Origin: Candidatus Caldatribacterium sp.
GTDB taxonomy: Bacteria; Atribacterota; Atribacteria; Atribacterales; Caldatribacteriaceae
Assembly: GCA_028275365.1 (NCBI GenBank)
Contig: JAPWUU010000008.1
Span: 1 to 41,950, forward strand
Length of the DNA: 41,950 nt
Reading direction: 5' to 3'
Shown here in pieces: positions 18,158 through 41,941 of this stretch. Made by a program: the position numbers and the translations under genes. The notes below the pieces were generated by a model. That model did no database searches and was not told where the DNA came from. It saw only the letters and a program-made list of their open reading frames with translations. Numbering within the stretch: position 1 is the first letter of the stretch; every line of letters begins with the position of its first letter.

Positions 18158-19426
18158 ATGGAGATAAAGGCGCCTCGGGGAACACGGGATATTCTCGGCG
18201 AAGAGGTGGTACTCTGGCAGCACCTTGAGGAAGTTGTGCGCCGGAATGCCCATCTTTTCGGATACGAGGAAATCCGAACCCCTGTTTTCGAGCATACGGA
18301 ACTCTTCACCCGTGGGGTGGGAGAGGAAACCGACATCGTGCAGAAGGAGATGTATACCTTCACCGATAAAGGGGGAAGGAGCATCACCCTTCGGCCAGAA
18401 GGGACGGCTCCTGTAGTGCGGGCATACCTTGAACACGGGTTCTTCGTCCGGGATCCCCGCGTCCGGTGGTACTACCTCGGCCCCATGTTCCGGTATGAGC
18501 GTCCCCAGGCAGGGCGCATGCGCCAGTTCCATCAGTTCGGTTTTGAAGCTTTAGGGTTCCAGGACCCGGCCTGTGATGCCGAAATCATCCTCCTTGCCTG
18601 GACGATTTACCGGGAACTCGGTCTTTCTGACCTTTCTCTTGAGCTCAACAGCATCGGCTGTTCCCTCTGCAAGCCCCACTACGTGCAGCGGCTTCGGGAG
18701 TACCTGGAGAGCCGCAAGGACGTACTCTGTGAGAACTGCAAAAGGCGTCTTGTGGAAAATCCGCTCCGAGTACTTGATTGCAAGAACGAAACGTGCCAGA
18801 TGGTGTTCCGCGAGGCATCTTTTCCGAACATTCAGGACTTCCTCTGCGCTGAGTGCCGCAGGCATGAAGAGCGACTCTTTTCCCTCCTCAAGCGCCTTGG
18901 TATCCCCTTTGTGGTCAACCCCCGTCTGGTCCGGGGCCTTGATTACTACACCCGTACGGTGTTTGAGGTTAAGGTCCGCGCCTTAGGGGCTCAGGATGCC
19001 ATTGGCGGTGGAGGGAGGTACGATGGCCTGGCACGGGTTCTTGGAGGTCCTGAGGTTCCGGGGGTCGGATTTGCGGCAGGCATGGAGCGCATTGTCCTCC
19101 TCCTTGAACGGAGCGGTTTTCCCCGGAAGGATACCTTTCGAGTGTACCTCGCCCCTCAGGATGAAGAGGGAGAGAAAGACCTCCTCGCGCTAAGCCAGGT
19201 TCTCCATGAAGCGGGTATCCCCTTCTGTCTTGACTTTGCCAGCAAAAGCCTCAGGTACCACCTGAAACGGGCGCAGAAAATGGGCGTGCGCTTTGTGGTC
19301 ATTGCCGGGGAAGAGGAACGGAAAAACGAAGGCTTTTCCCTCAAAGACCTTGTTTCGGGGGAGCAGATGCTCCTTTCCCGAGAAGAACTCCTTGGGCGAC
19401 TGCGAAAGGAGCGGAAGGCATGCTGA
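18158..19426 (+). CDS. hisS: histidyl-tRNA synthetase
   Basis: A 422-residue class II synthetase. Motif 1 region ([20 protein letters not shown]), motif 2 ([18 protein letters not shown]), the histidine-binding [13 protein letters not shown] and motif 3 (GFAAGMERI) are present, followed by an HGTP anticodon-binding domain (~residues 325-415). The insertion domain carries cysteine pairs (CSLCKPH, CENCK, DCKNETC, CAEC) that could hold zinc, as in several bacterial HisRS. The start ATG 18158 follows GGGAAGGGATGGG. It overlaps aspS by 7 nt; a hisS-aspS pair is a common arrangement in Gram-positive-like lineages. Confidence 0.97.
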
Positions 19427-21174
19427 GGACCCATACCTGTGGTGAGCTTCGCAAAACCGATGTAGGGAAGGAAGTTACCCTTGCAGGCTGGGTGCACCGG
19501 ATTCGGGACCATGGGGGCATCATTTTCCTGGATCTCCGGGATCGCTTCGGCATCACCCAGGTCGTGGTGAGTTCGGAGAACACAAAAGCCTATGAGGTTG
19601 CCGTGTCTGTCCGTCCTGAATACGTGGTGCAGGTGAGGGGTGTTGTCAGGGAGCGGCCTGAGGGTCTCACCAATCCCCGTCTGGCTACCGGAGACATTGA
19701 GGTCCATGCGCTGACGTTTGCGGTGCTCTCGCCTTCCGAGCTCCCACCCTTTGAGATTGAGGGGAGGAAGGAAGTTGACGAATCCCTCCGTCTCCGGTAC
19801 AGATACCTGGATCTTCGGCGGTCCAAAATGCAGGAAAACCTCATGCTGCGCCATAAAGTGGCGCAGAGCATCCGCCGGTTCCTTACCGAGCGTGGTTTTG
19901 TTGAGATCGAAACTCCTTTCCTCACGAAGAGCACACCTGAGGGTGCCCGGGATTTCCTTGTGCCCAGCCGCTTGAATCCCGGCTCCTTCTACGCCCTGCC
20001 CCAGTCGCCCCAGCTCTTCAAGCAACTCCTCATGGTGGCTGGCTTTGACCGGTACTTTCAGATTGTCCGGTGTTTCCGCGACGAGGACCTCCGGGCCGAC
20101 CGGCAACCCGAGTTCACCCAGGTGGACATCGAGATGTCCTTTGTGGACCGGGAGGATGTGCTGCGGCTTGTGGAAGAACTCATGCAGCACGTTTTTGCCG
20201 AGGTGCTTGAGGTGACCCTGGAGATTCCCTTCCTGCGCCTGACGTATGAGGAAGCCCTGAGAAAGTACGGCACGGACAAGCCGGACCTTCGTTTCTCTCT
20301 CACTATCGACGACCTCACACCGCTTTTCCTTGAGGAAGGAGAAGGCGTGCTTTCCCCCGGGGAAAAAGGCCGCATTGTCTTCCGGGGACTTTTCGTGCCC
20401 CAGGACCATTCCCTCTCCCGGAAAAAGCTCGACCTCTTTGCAGCGGAGGCAAGGGAAAGGCACCTTGCCCTTTCCTGGGTTCGAAGGGCCCAGGAGGACT
20501 TCTCCTCTCCCCTCAAAGGGAAGGTTCCCGAAACGCTCTTCCAGCGCCTTGTGGCGAGATACCCCTTTGGTGAGGGTTCGGTGCTCCTTGTGTCCTGGGG
20601 GGAGGAAGAGGCTCTCCAGGAGTTTCTGGGGAATCTTCGGGTGCAACTTGGGAAAGAGATGCCCGAGAAAGAGCGTTTCGCCTTTGTGTGGGTTGTGGAC
20701 TTTCCCCTTCTTGAGTGGAGCGAGGAGGAGAAGCGCTGGGTTTCAGTTCACCACCCCTTCACGGCTCCCTTTGACGAGGATATTCCCCTTCTTGACGAGC
20801 ATCCAGAGCGCGTTCGGGCAAAGGCTTACGACCTCGTCCTCAACGGGTACGAGGTTGGTGGAGGCAGTATCCGGATTCACCGGAGGGACCTTCAGGAGAA
20901 AATCTTCTCCCGCCTCAGCCTGACGGAGCGGGAAATCCGGGAGAAATTCGGTTTCTTTGTGGAGGCGCTGCAGTTTGGCTGTCCTCCCCATGGGGGCATC
21001 GCTTTGGGTTTCGACCGGCTGGTGATGCTCCTTTGCGGTGAGGGTTCCATTCGGGAAGTCATCGCCTTTCCCAAAACGCAAAAGGGTGTGTGCCTGCTCA
21101 CCGGTGCTCCGTCTCCGGTGGAGAAGGAGCAGCTCGACATCCTTGGCATTGCCCTCAAGGAGGAAAAGCGGTAG
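19420..21174 (+). CDS. aspS: aspartyl-tRNA synthetase, residues of the non-discriminating type
   Basis: A 584-residue bacterial-type AspRS with an N-terminal OB-fold anticodon domain (~1-105), class II catalytic core (motif 2 [18 protein letters not shown]) interrupted by the bacterial GAD insertion (~290-400), and motif 3 [13 protein letters not shown]. Two positions in the anticodon domain are His31 (RDHGG) and Gly82 (RPEGLT). In known bacterial enzymes, this pair marks non-discriminating AspRS, which also charges tRNA-Asn with Asp; discriminating enzymes carry Leu and Lys there. If so, the host needs GatCAB to convert Asp-tRNA-Asn to Asn-tRNA-Asn. No gat or asnS gene lies in the window. 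Enzyme identity is firm; the specificity call is a motif-based prediction. Confidence 0.96.
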
Positions 21175-21218: not shown

Positions 21219-21247
21219 TTGCAAAAGGCGAGGGCTTGTGCTATTAT
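21219..21247 (+). promoter_or_regulatory. strong sigma70-type promoter upstream of the rod RNA and rpsA
   Basis: TTGCAA (21219-21224), a 17 nt spacer, then TATTAT (21242-21247) with an upstream TG making an extended -10. Predicted start is near 21253-21255, just before the first paired base of the rod-like RNA at 21265. Confidence 0.7.
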
Positions 21248-21252
21248 CTTGG

Positions 21253-21425
21253 CAGAAGTCGGTTTGTGACCCTGCTTTGCGCGTGATGTCAAATGAGGCT
21301 TTGACCCAACACCCTTGTCCAGGGAGCCTGGACTCCGGAAGAGCTGTGGTTCTTCCGGGAGGGCACCCACCTTTTGGAGGACGAGGATCAAAGCGGTTGA
21401 CACACGGCAAAAGCGGGGTCACACT
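21253..21425 (+). ncRNA. long rod-folding structured RNA between aspS and rpsA (6S-like RNA or S1 leader)
   Basis: Hand folding gives one imperfect rod. P1 pairs 21265-21278 with 21410-21423 (14 bp, one G-U). P2 pairs 21282-21292 with 21397-21406, with a single bulged A. P3 pairs 21298-21304 with 21388-21394. P4 pairs 21313-21320 with 21379-21386. The end stem pairs 21322-21328 with 21362-21368, and 21333-21342 with 21351-21361, around an 8 nt loop. Unpaired stretches (ATGAG/GG and CCCAACAC/A) lie either side of short P3; if P3 opens, they form one large central bubble. A ~170 nt rod with a central bubble, its own promoter and a place after aspS is what a 6S RNA looks like; from memory, the B. 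subtilis 6S gene bsrA also lies next to aspS. No terminator separates it from rpsA, so a cis-acting S1 leader is the main alternative. Confidence 0.55.
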
Positions 21426-21441
21426 GTGAGGAAGGAGTGTG
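21420..21441 (+). promoter_or_regulatory. candidate SD-sequestering hairpin at the rpsA start
   Basis: CACACT (21420-21425) can pair with AGTGTG (21436-21441), closing a loop that contains GTGAGGAAGG, the upstream part of the rpsA ribosome site. Its 5' arm uses bases 21420-21423 that also close P1 of the rod RNA, so the two folds exclude each other. Confidence 0.35.
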
Positions 21442-21447
21442 TTGGGT

Positions 21448-23385
21448 GTGGAAAACGAGAAAGCAATGGAGCTGCTCCACGAAAACCTCGAACAAATCCG
21501 CATGGTGCGACCCGGAGACCTCATCAAGGGAAAGGTCATTAAAAAGGGCGACGAAGGCTACTTTGTGAACATCAATTATAAAGCCGAGGGCATTCTCCCT
21601 CTCCGGGAACGGGCTCAGGGGAGAGAAGGTGAGGTGGAGCACGATCTCAAAGAGGGAGAGGAAATCTGGGTCATGGTGACCCGCATCGACGATCAGGGGT
21701 ATGTATGGCTTTCACGGGAGCAGGCCCGTTACCAGGGTGCCTGGATTGACATAGAGGAGAGCAAGGACCAGGGGAAGGTCCTCACGGCGAAGGTCAAGCG
21801 AAAGGTCAAGGGTGGGCTCATTGTGGATGTTGGGGTAAACGCTTTCCTTCCCGCTTCCTGTGTTGACGTCGTTCCCCGGAATCTCGACGAGCTCATCGAC
21901 CAGTCGATTCAGGTGAAGGTCATCGAGGCCGACCGCAAGACCCGTAACGTCATTGTCTCTCGCCGGGCGGTGATTGAAGAGGAACTCGCCCGTCGCCGCC
22001 AGGAGACCATCGCCTCACTTGAAGTCGGTCAGATTCGAAAGGGCGTTGTGAAGAACATCACCAATTTCGGTGTCTTTGTGGACCTCGGAGGCATTGACGG
22101 GCTTTTACATATCTCCGAGGTCTCCTGGGGCAAAGTCGGCAAACTCGAGGACCTCTTCAAAAAGGGTGACGAAATCGAGGTCAAGGTCATTGCCTGGGAT
22201 CCGGAGAAAGAGGAAATCAGCCTCAGCCTGAAACGCCTCACCCCTGATCCGTGGGAGCGCTTCGTCCAGGAAGTGAAGGTTGGCGACGTCGTCAAGGGGA
22301 AGGTTGTTTCCCTGAAGGAGTTCGGGGTGTTTGTGGAGATTGAGGAAGGCGTGGAGGGGCTCATCCACATTTCAGACCTCTCCTGGGGGTATGTGAAGCA
22401 TCCCCGGGAAGTGGTGAAGGTCGGCGATATTGTGGAGGCCAAGGTTCTCGAAATTGACCCTGAGCGGCGTCGCATTTCCCTCGGTCTCAAGCAGATTTTC
22501 CCTGACCCCTGGGAGAACATCGAGGAGAAGTATCCTGTGGGAAGCACCGTCCGTGTCCGGGTGAACAAGGTGAGCACCAGGGGAGCGCTGGTTGAGGTGG
22601 AGGAGGGTGTTGAGGGTCGTATCCCCCTTGAGGAGCTCTCCTGGAAGCGGGTTACCCGGGTGAACGACGTGGTGCGGCGGAACCAGCTTGTGGAAGCCAA
22701 GGTTCTCGCCATTGATCGGGAAAGCCGGCAACTCACCCTGAGCCTGCGGGCACTCCGTCCTAATCCCTGGGAAGAGGCGCAGGCGAGGTGGCAGGTTGGG
22801 GACATCGTCGAGGGGAAGATTCAGCGCCTCATGAACTTCGGTGCCTTTGTGGAGCTTGCCCCTGAGATTGAAGCCCTGCTTCCCCTTTCTGAAATTGCCT
22901 GGGAACCGGTGAAGCACCCCAGTCAGGTCTTCAAGAAAGGGCAGACGGTTTCGCTGAAGATTATCGAGTTCAAACCGGAAGAGCAGCGCATTGTGGTGAG
23001 CCGCAAGGCACTCCTCCCGGATCCCTGGGAAATCATCAAAACCCGGTATCCTCTGGGGAGCGTCCACGAGGGGAAGGTTGTCCGACTGGTGGATTTTGGT
23101 GCCTTCGTGGAGCTTGAGGAGGGCTGGGATGGTCTCGTGCACATCTCGGAAATCGCTGAAGAGCGTATCAGTTCTCCCCAGGAGGTTCTCAAAGAGGGTG
23201 ATGTCGTCAAGGTCAAGGTCATCAAGCTCGACGATGCCGAGCGGAAGATTGGCTTAAGTATCAAGCAGGCGCTGCGGGAAGAAGAGGAGAAAGCCCGCAA
23301 AGAACAGACTCAAGAAGGAAAAATCACCCTTGGGGACGTCATTGGGGAGAAACTGGCGACCATTCTGAACAACCTGAAAAAATGA
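21448..23385 (+). CDS. rpsA: 30S ribosomal protein S1 homologue with seven S1 repeats
   Basis: A 645-residue protein composed almost wholly of S1 RNA-binding OB folds. I count seven: near residues 17-92, 102-172, 187-265, 273-350, 358-435, 443-520 and 528-605. Repeats 3, 4 and 7 have the best-kept motif (GVFVDLGGIDGLLHISE, GVFVEIEEGVEGLIHISD, GAFVELEEGWDGLVHISE); repeats 1 and 2 are diverged, as in the ribosome-binding domains of E. coli S1. E. coli S1 has six repeats and many Gram-positive homologues four. S1 helps recruit and unfold mRNA on the 30S subunit. GTG 21448 has AAGGAG 10 nt upstream; GTG 21439 and TTG 21442 are too close to that site. The stop overlaps the next start as ATGA. Confidence 0.92.
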   Translation: MENEKAMELLHENLEQIRMVRPGDLIKGKVIKKGDEGYFVNINYKAEGILPLRERAQGREGEVEHDLKEGEEIWVMVTRIDDQGYVWLSREQARYQGAWIDIEESKDQGKVLTAKVKRKVKGGLIVDVGVNAFLPASCVDVVPRNLDELIDQSIQVKVIEADRKTRNVIVSRRAVIEEELARRRQETIASLEVGQIRKGVVKNITNFGVFVDLGGIDGLLHISEVSWGKVGKLEDLFKKGDEIEVKVIAWDPEKEEISLSLKRLTPDPWERFVQEVKVGDVVKGKVVSLKEFGVFVEIEEGVEGLIHISDLSWGYVKHPREVVKVGDIVEAKVLEIDPERRRISLGLKQIFPDPWENIEEKYPVGSTVRVRVNKVSTRGALVEVEEGVEGRIPLEELSWKRVTRVNDVVRRNQLVEAKVLAIDRESRQLTLSLRALRPNPWEEAQARWQVGDIVEGKIQRLMNFGAFVELAPEIEALLPLSEIAWEPVKHPSQVFKKGQTVSLKIIEFKPEEQRIVVSRKALLPDPWEIIKTRYPLGSVHEGKVVRLVDFGAFVELEEGWDGLVHISEIAEERISSPQEVLKEGDVVKVKVIKLDDAERKIGLSIKQALREEEEKARKEQTQEGKITLGDVIGEKLATILNNLKK

Positions 23386-24374
23386 ACGTCCCGTTGGAAA
23401 AACTGGCTCTGTCTGCCCTTGCCTGCACCATCATCGAAGAAATCCGGGAAGTGGCTTCGTGCTTTCGACAAACCGTTGTGGCCTTTTCGGGAGGGATGGA
23501 CAGCACCGTTACGCTTTTTTTGGCCTGCGAGGCTCTGGGGCGGAGGAACGTCGTTTCCTGCACCGTTGACTGGGGGCCGTATCTTCCCCGGAAGGCCCGT
23601 GAAAACATTCGCTTCCTCGTGGAGCACTTCGGGGTGGAGCACATCATGCTCCCCGGCCAGAGTGTGCTTGAAGAGGTGGCAAAGGGTGGTCCCTCCTGTA
23701 ACCTCTGCACAAAAAGGGCGAAACTCGCCCGCATTCGGGAGTATTTCGGGGAGGGTACGCTCATTCTTGGTGGGGCCAACAAAAGCGACAGCTGGGGTAA
23801 CCGGGGGGTGAAGTTCCTCAGGGGGACGTTTTCGCCGCTTTTTGACCTGGGGAAGGAAGCGATTGCCGCTTTAGCGGCGTTCCTTGGTATCCCCATCCGC
23901 CGGATCGGAGAACACGCCGTCCGGGAAGGCTGTTTCCTCAAACACCTCTTGAAACCCCTGGCCTCTCCCTCCTTTCATGGTCAGGCGGTGGTGGAGGCCA
24001 ACGAACGCCTTCTTGGGGTGCTCGATGAGGCAGGGTATGCGAGAGACCTTGCCAACGTCGCCGTCGTGGGCCCCTTGCGGGAGAACATCGCCCTGGTGAA
24101 TGTGTCTCCTCTGCCTGGAGAGCCTCTGAGGACCAGGATTCTTGAGGGCCTTTCGGCCCTTCCTTCCCTTTCCCGGGTGGTCCTTGTGGATGGACCCCTG
24201 CGGCTTGTGGTCCGGGCCAATCCCGGCATTTACCACAACGAGCTCTCCCGATTCTGGCTTGTACGGGGGAGGATACAGCCGGAATTCGCCTTCCCCGTAG
24301 AGTGTGTTTTCCTCCCCTCAACCAACAGGCGGTTGCGAACCTTTCACGTTGTGGACGTCGTAAAGGAGCGATGA
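23382..24374 (+). CDS. PP-loop ATP-pyrophosphatase family protein (LarE/ExsB-like)
   Basis: A 330-residue protein. The PP-loop SGGMDST (~residue 36) marks an N-type ATP pyrophosphatase that activates a substrate by adenylation. It is followed by GPSCNLCTKRAKL (~residue 104), a Cys-x2-Cys in the place where LarE-type proteins have RCYxCK. GGANKSD is the expected second nucleotide-binding motif. The C-terminal ~100 residues (VGPLRENIALVNVS onward) recall the tail of GMP synthetase-like or tRNA-modifying members but I cannot name it. Possible roles are sulfur insertion into a cofactor or tRNA thiolation. Start and stop overlap rpsA and alaS by ATGA, so it is co-translated with translation genes, which mildly favours a tRNA-related job. 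Confidence 0.75.
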   Translation: MNVPLEKLALSALACTIIEEIREVASCFRQTVVAFSGGMDSTVTLFLACEALGRRNVVSCTVDWGPYLPRKARENIRFLVEHFGVEHIMLPGQSVLEEVAKGGPSCNLCTKRAKLARIREYFGEGTLILGGANKSDSWGNRGVKFLRGTFSPLFDLGKEAIAALAAFLGIPIRRIGEHAVREGCFLKHLLKPLASPSFHGQAVVEANERLLGVLDEAGYARDLANVAVVGPLRENIALVNVSPLPGEPLRTRILEGLSALPSLSRVVLVDGPLRLVVRANPGIYHNELSRFWLVRGRIQPEFAFPVECVFLPSTNRRLRTFHVVDVVKER

Positions 24375-41617: not shown

Positions 41618-41694
41618 TGGTAGGCCGTGCAGGACTTGAACCTGCAACCCACTGATTAAGAGTCAGTTGCTCTGCCAAATTGAGCTAACGGCCC
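41618..41694 (-). tRNA. tRNA-Lys (anticodon CTT)
   Basis: 77 nt with an encoded CCA. Acceptor GGGCCGT/ACGGCCT (G1-U72 wobble), D arm GCTC/GAGC, anticodon stem ACTGA/TCAGT with loop CTCTTAA, giving CTT (reads AAG), and T arm GCAGG/CCTGC with loop TTCAAGT. All arms pair. Confidence 0.95.
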
Positions 41695-41787: not shown

Positions 41788-41806
41788 GCTCTCAAAGTGC
41801 ATACGG

Positions 41807-41900
41807 AACCGGGGGAGCTCCAGAACGCGGGGCTGAGAGGAGAGCGCAAGCTCTCGACCCTTTGAACCTGATCTGGGTAATGCCAGCGGAGGGAGTTGGT
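41807..41900 (+). promoter_or_regulatory. TPP riboswitch (THI element)
   Basis: The conserved thi-box core is complete: GGGGCTGAGAGG, a P3 stem-loop GAGAGCGCAAGCTCTC, then ACCCTTTGAACCTGATCTGG, GTAATGCCAGCG and GGAGGGA. It senses thiamine pyrophosphate. A terminator follows directly, so TPP binding is predicted to stop transcription of a thiamine synthesis or transport gene to the right of the window. Confidence 0.95.
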
Positions 41901-41909
41901 GAGTTTTGG

Positions 41910-41941
41910 GCCACTTGCCGACCTGGCAAGTGGCTTTTTTT
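41910..41941 (+). terminator. rho-independent terminator of the TPP riboswitch
   Basis: Perfect 10 bp stem GCCACTTGCC/GGCAAGTGGC with a 5 nt loop, followed by seven Ts. It lies 9 nt after the riboswitch core and is the expected off-switch. Confidence 0.92.

Follow-up and report, generated by a model that had tools for sequence, protein, structure and literature searches.

A B. subtilis-type 6S RNA gene between aspS and rpsA in a Candidatus Caldatribacterium species

By mimicking an open promoter, 6S RNA, a well-known small RNA, shuts down the main RNA polymerase. Two described systems are closest to the locus considered here. In Bacillus subtilis, the measured pRNA of 6S-1 is 5'-GUUCGGUCAAAACU, also written 5'-GUUCGGUCAAAACUA (PMC12005410), and 6S-1 is released when P2 opens and a central-bubble collapse helix forms (PMC8876501). 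According to Suzuma et al. 2002, as cited in PMC12005410, aspS is a neighbor of the B. subtilis 6S gene. In Proteobacteria, 6S is known from the ssrS-ygfA operon (PMC2848244, PMC7641849). Atribacterota is a thermophilic bacterial phylum that has received little study, although isolates have been described (PMC7736352, PMC11227167). No paper on 6S RNA in Atribacterota was found in the open-access literature, a search outside whose reach most subscription papers lie.

For the window, i.e., the whole 41,950-nt stretch of DNA analyzed here, the initial annotation had placed a rod-shaped RNA of about 170 nt behind a promoter between aspS and the S1 gene, and had proposed it as a 6S candidate with an aspS neighbor paralleling that of B. 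subtilis. The placement agreed with the NCBIfam assignments on both sides, namely aspS (aspartyl-tRNA synthetase) at 19420-21174 (+; NF001750, 810.6 bits, cut-off 443) and rpsA (ribosomal protein S1) at 21439-23385 (+; NF005208, 724.3 bits, cut-off 368), the latter with alternative start codons TTG at 21442 or GTG at 21448. The parallel with B. subtilis also holds, as far as the 2002 report is represented in the citing paper. The closest S1 relatives were those of Candidatus Caldatribacterium californiense and C. saccharofermentans (99 and 97% identical), and the neighbors around the 6S locus were hisS, aspS, rpsA, an ATP-pyrophosphatase-like protein gene and alaS. The ATP-pyrophosphatase-like protein (23382-24374, +), located between rpsA and alaS, gave weak matches to NAD synthase, LarE and QueC, all under the NCBIfam cut-offs. 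Additionally, a tRNA-Lys (CTT; 41618-41694, -) and a TPP riboswitch aptamer (41801-41911, +; 66.7 bits) were observed near the end of the window.

The initial annotation had suggested a covariance-model scan and a search for compensatory changes in relatives as checks, and a score for another family as a ground for rejection. The Rfam covariance model RF00013 (6S/SsrS) matched the plus strand at 21266-21423 with 73.7 bits (E 7.8e-13), well above the gathering score of 46.4 bits, and the match ran end to end over model positions 1-187 of 187. No rival Rfam family was found in this region up to E = 1, so that a riboswitch or other RNA family was rejected as an identification, and a genome search for a second 6S copy, likewise rejected, returned no other match. 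With these results the 6S proposal was confirmed. With a probability of roughly 95%, we consider 21266-21423 to be a genuine 6S RNA gene (ssrS), the only one in this Caldatribacterium species, and expect it to form a 6S-rpsA unit as set out below. It extends a known RNA family and does not constitute a novel type of RNA; automated annotation based on Rfam would presumably include it.

Folded computationally, 21219-21425 reached a minimum free energy of -102.9 kcal/mol, compared with a mean of -70.7 for shuffled sequences (z = -6.9); none of 200 shuffles folded as well. The closing helix (5' strand 21265-21278, 3' strand 21410-21423) does comprise the 14 bp initially described; the pairing, which had been called exact, is nearly so, consisting of 13 Watson-Crick pairs and one U-G pair (21273-21415). 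An alignment of 19 loci from the window's order contained 47 consensus pairs with 98.7% of cells paired, compared with 35-46% when the structure was slid out of register. Two-sided changes were present in 18 of the 47 pairs (91 cells), values reached by none of 500 shuffles, and the compensatory changes looked for in relatives were thus found. They affected 6 of the 12 consensus pairs of the closing helix and 7 of the 10 in the apical stem-loop (21335-21358; 10 bp with a 4-nt loop), so that across these loci the rod of closing stem, central bubble and apical stem is maintained by compensatory changes. The P2 helix (21298-21307 with 21385-21394) was 100% paired and nearly invariant, and with no two-sided changes among the 19 loci it has no covariation support of its own; this near-invariance is expected if P2 doubles as the pRNA template. 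A 63-aa plus-strand and a 107-aa minus-strand open reading frame do exist mechanically here, and the region could in principle be read as a small protein gene or as a chance fold. The curated-model match, the shuffle z-score and the strong two-sided covariation refute this reading, whose probability we regard as practically nil.

A promoter precedes the rod, as had been claimed. It consists of a -35 element TTGCAA (21219-21224, +), a 17-nt spacer and a -10 element TATTAT with an extended TG (21242-21247, +), which together agree with 9 of 12 consensus bases, and it was conserved in every aligned relative of the window's order as TTGNAA/TTTGAAA...TATTAT. The 500-nt region contained two promoter-like sites, where 0.1 were expected; the second is on the minus strand. 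From the position of the -10 element, transcription is predicted to start at about 21253-21256. A transcript from near 21254 to about 21425 would measure approximately 172 nt, in line with the initial size estimate; the Rfam core spans 158 nt. No terminator-like site was present on the plus strand between 6S and rpsA in the scanned region; across the window's order, the rod was likewise followed by no terminator-like site and by no T-run longer than three. The distance from 6S to the rpsA Shine-Dalgarno sequence GGAAGGAG (21430-21437, +), which was invariant in the order alignment, was 6-24 nt across the order and 6 nt in the window. The 6S-rpsA junction thus combines a promoter of its own with the lack of a terminator before the next gene, the features of a dicistronic unit of the ssrS-ygfA type. 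Because the Shine-Dalgarno sequence follows so closely and no terminator intervenes, a dicistronic 6S-rpsA transcript that undergoes processing is expected.

The central bubble was informative about the probable mode of action. On its 5' strand, the motif TTTGANCCAAC occurred in all 41 copies found by Rfam and marks the predicted pRNA template (21297-21310, +), with synthesis expected to start opposite C21310. Read from this position, the template predicts a pRNA of 5'-GUUGGGUCAAAGCC. Compared with the measured B. subtilis 6S-1 pRNA, a strict reading gives agreement over the first 11 positions with a single exception; by ungapped count 12 of the first 14 nt agree, the mismatches lying at positions 4 and 12 and in the final base, at which the two RNAs diverge. 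A central-bubble collapse helix was also predicted, between 21313-21320 (5' strand) and 21379-21386 (3' strand), with 95.8% of cells paired and two pairs showing two-sided changes in the window's order. Its computed pairing probability rose from 0.41-0.44 in the free RNA to 0.98-0.99 when the 14-nt template was masked; since masking itself imposes the opening of P2, this calculation informs only on which helix replaces P2. The modeling therefore predicts that, once the pRNA occupies the template, a conserved helix resembling the B. subtilis central-bubble collapse helix would form.

Altogether, these features are consistent with the following mechanism. A transcript initiated near 21254 at the housekeeping-type promoter would fold into the 6S rod, bind RNA polymerase carrying the primary sigma factor as a mimic of an open promoter, and inhibit it during nucleotide shortage. 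Once nucleotides return, transcription by the polymerase along the 5' bubble strand, starting from C21310, would yield the pRNA; this would open P2, allow 21313-21320 to pair with 21379-21386 and release the 6S RNA, as in B. subtilis 6S-1. As no terminator precedes rpsA, the primary transcript would be dicistronic, and the mature 6S RNA would probably be cut out of it in the manner of E. coli 6S from ssrS-ygfA.

Searches across the phylum identified 6S RNA in 44 of 50 genomes, 41 by Rfam and a further three with a model derived from loci of the window's order; true absence from the latter three was rejected because the order-built model recovered their copies. In G020, the most complete of the genomes lacking a match, just 50 nt separate the start of the S1 gene from a contig end, so that a 6S gene would be cut off. 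The remaining five (G018, G021, G033, G043 and G044) are assembled incompletely, at 60-81%. The model built from the order alone also detected the 6S RNA of the sister classes, at E-values of 5e-15 to 6e-9. The same model, a narrow one, detected no 6S RNA next to the 72 S1 genes searched from other phyla. B. subtilis-type 6S RNA can now be placed throughout the phylum Atribacterota (OP9). In sister-class families f6 and f7 (loci L002-L020, L023 and L026), the RNA was 221-236 nt long owing to a branched apical arm with extra hairpins and a junction containing strongly conserved stretches. One of these branched RNAs (L009, 1501-1736) matched RF00013 with 81.6 bits, and no description of such an arm was found in the open-access literature.

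The flanking genes provided additional information about the history of the locus. aspS lay upstream of 6S in 33 of 41 loci of the phylum. In the sister classes (families f5-f7), the 6S RNA was followed by T-rich sequence and then, directly 3', by ygfA, which encodes 5-formyltetrahydrofolate cyclo-ligase (TIGR02727 at ~165 bits); the two were adjacent on the same strand in all 20 sister-class genomes in which both were found. None of the 25 genomes from the window's order gave a PF01812 match indicating ygfA. Neither this ygfA link nor the terminator-free continuation into rpsA featured in the initial annotation. These flanks support orthology of the RNAs. The occurrence of aspS and ygfA on either side of 6S within one phylum joins two neighborhoods previously known one from Bacillus and the other from Proteobacteria, and suggests that the order aspS-6S-ygfA is old. 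The simplest history would be an ancestral order aspS-6S-ygfA-S1 from which ygfA was lost in the lineage of the window.

The direct 6S-rpsA junction is the less ordinary feature of the locus, and it bears on whether the rod might act mainly in cis as an rpsA leader, e.g., as an S1 autoregulation element, and not as a free small RNA. Each of the 19 loci aligned from the order has the rod immediately before rpsA, at the short and terminator-free distance described above, and in genus g4 (G019), where aspS is on another contig, rpsA is still attached to the rod. However, the sister classes carry the same RNA ahead of ygfA, with T-rich sequence in between; a pRNA template, which would be irrelevant to a leader, is retained in 41 of 41 copies; the full 6S model is matched end to end; and the Shine-Dalgarno sequence is unpaired in most predicted folds. 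We consider a purely leader role very unlikely. A functional 6S RNA that, through its maturation or its binding to polymerase, also determines the amount of S1 would fit the persistence of the arrangement across a whole order that lacks ygfA, and in several relatives the closing helix could be lengthened by sequence beside the Shine-Dalgarno sequence (e.g., GGGTTT/AAACCC). This extension is absent from the window's own genus, however, which has a gap of just 6 nt, and E. coli 6S-ygfA shows that co-transcription by itself requires no cis control; such a double role also seems unlikely. In its strongest form, this idea would have 6S now serve as a fixed leader at the 5' end of the S1 mRNA in the window's order, with one transcript and its cutting setting both polymerase trapping and S1 synthesis, a proposal to which we would give only small odds. 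The preferred reading remains a free 6S RNA processed from a 6S-rpsA transcript, and the fusion means that a link of S1 supply to polymerase control can be put to the test. As a separate observation, the extension (GGGTTT/AAACCC or CGGTT/AACCG in L114-L119, L121, L113 and L030) crosses a conserved TTYGTGATA-like bulge and reaches the rpsA Shine-Dalgarno sequence; given its absence from the window's genus, it was left out of the 6S structure.

Only two points are mildly novel, namely the S1 leader arrangement and the branched 6S RNA of the sister classes. Relative to Rfam RF00013, the match is full-length, and the Caldatribacterium RNA falls short of the 187-position model by about 30 nt, chiefly in the apical arm. 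With E. coli ssrS-ygfA it shares the dicistronic layout, and 6S would be expected to be processed out of a longer transcript in Caldatribacterium too; the sister classes of Atribacterota even have ygfA downstream, whereas the window's order lacks ygfA and has rpsA in its place. The central bubble, in contrast to that of E. coli 6S, is of the B. subtilis type. B. subtilis 6S-1 (bsrA, aspS-yrvM) is longer (~190 nt against a core of 158 nt), is followed by yrvM instead of rpsA and is accompanied by 6S-2, whereas Caldatribacterium has one copy, for which no terminator of its own was seen. The two nevertheless have in common aspS upstream and the predicted pRNA match (12/14 nt by ungapped count; the first 11 at all but one), and a collapse helix on pRNA synthesis like that of 6S-1 is predicted for the Caldatribacterium RNA (PMC12005410, PMC8876501).
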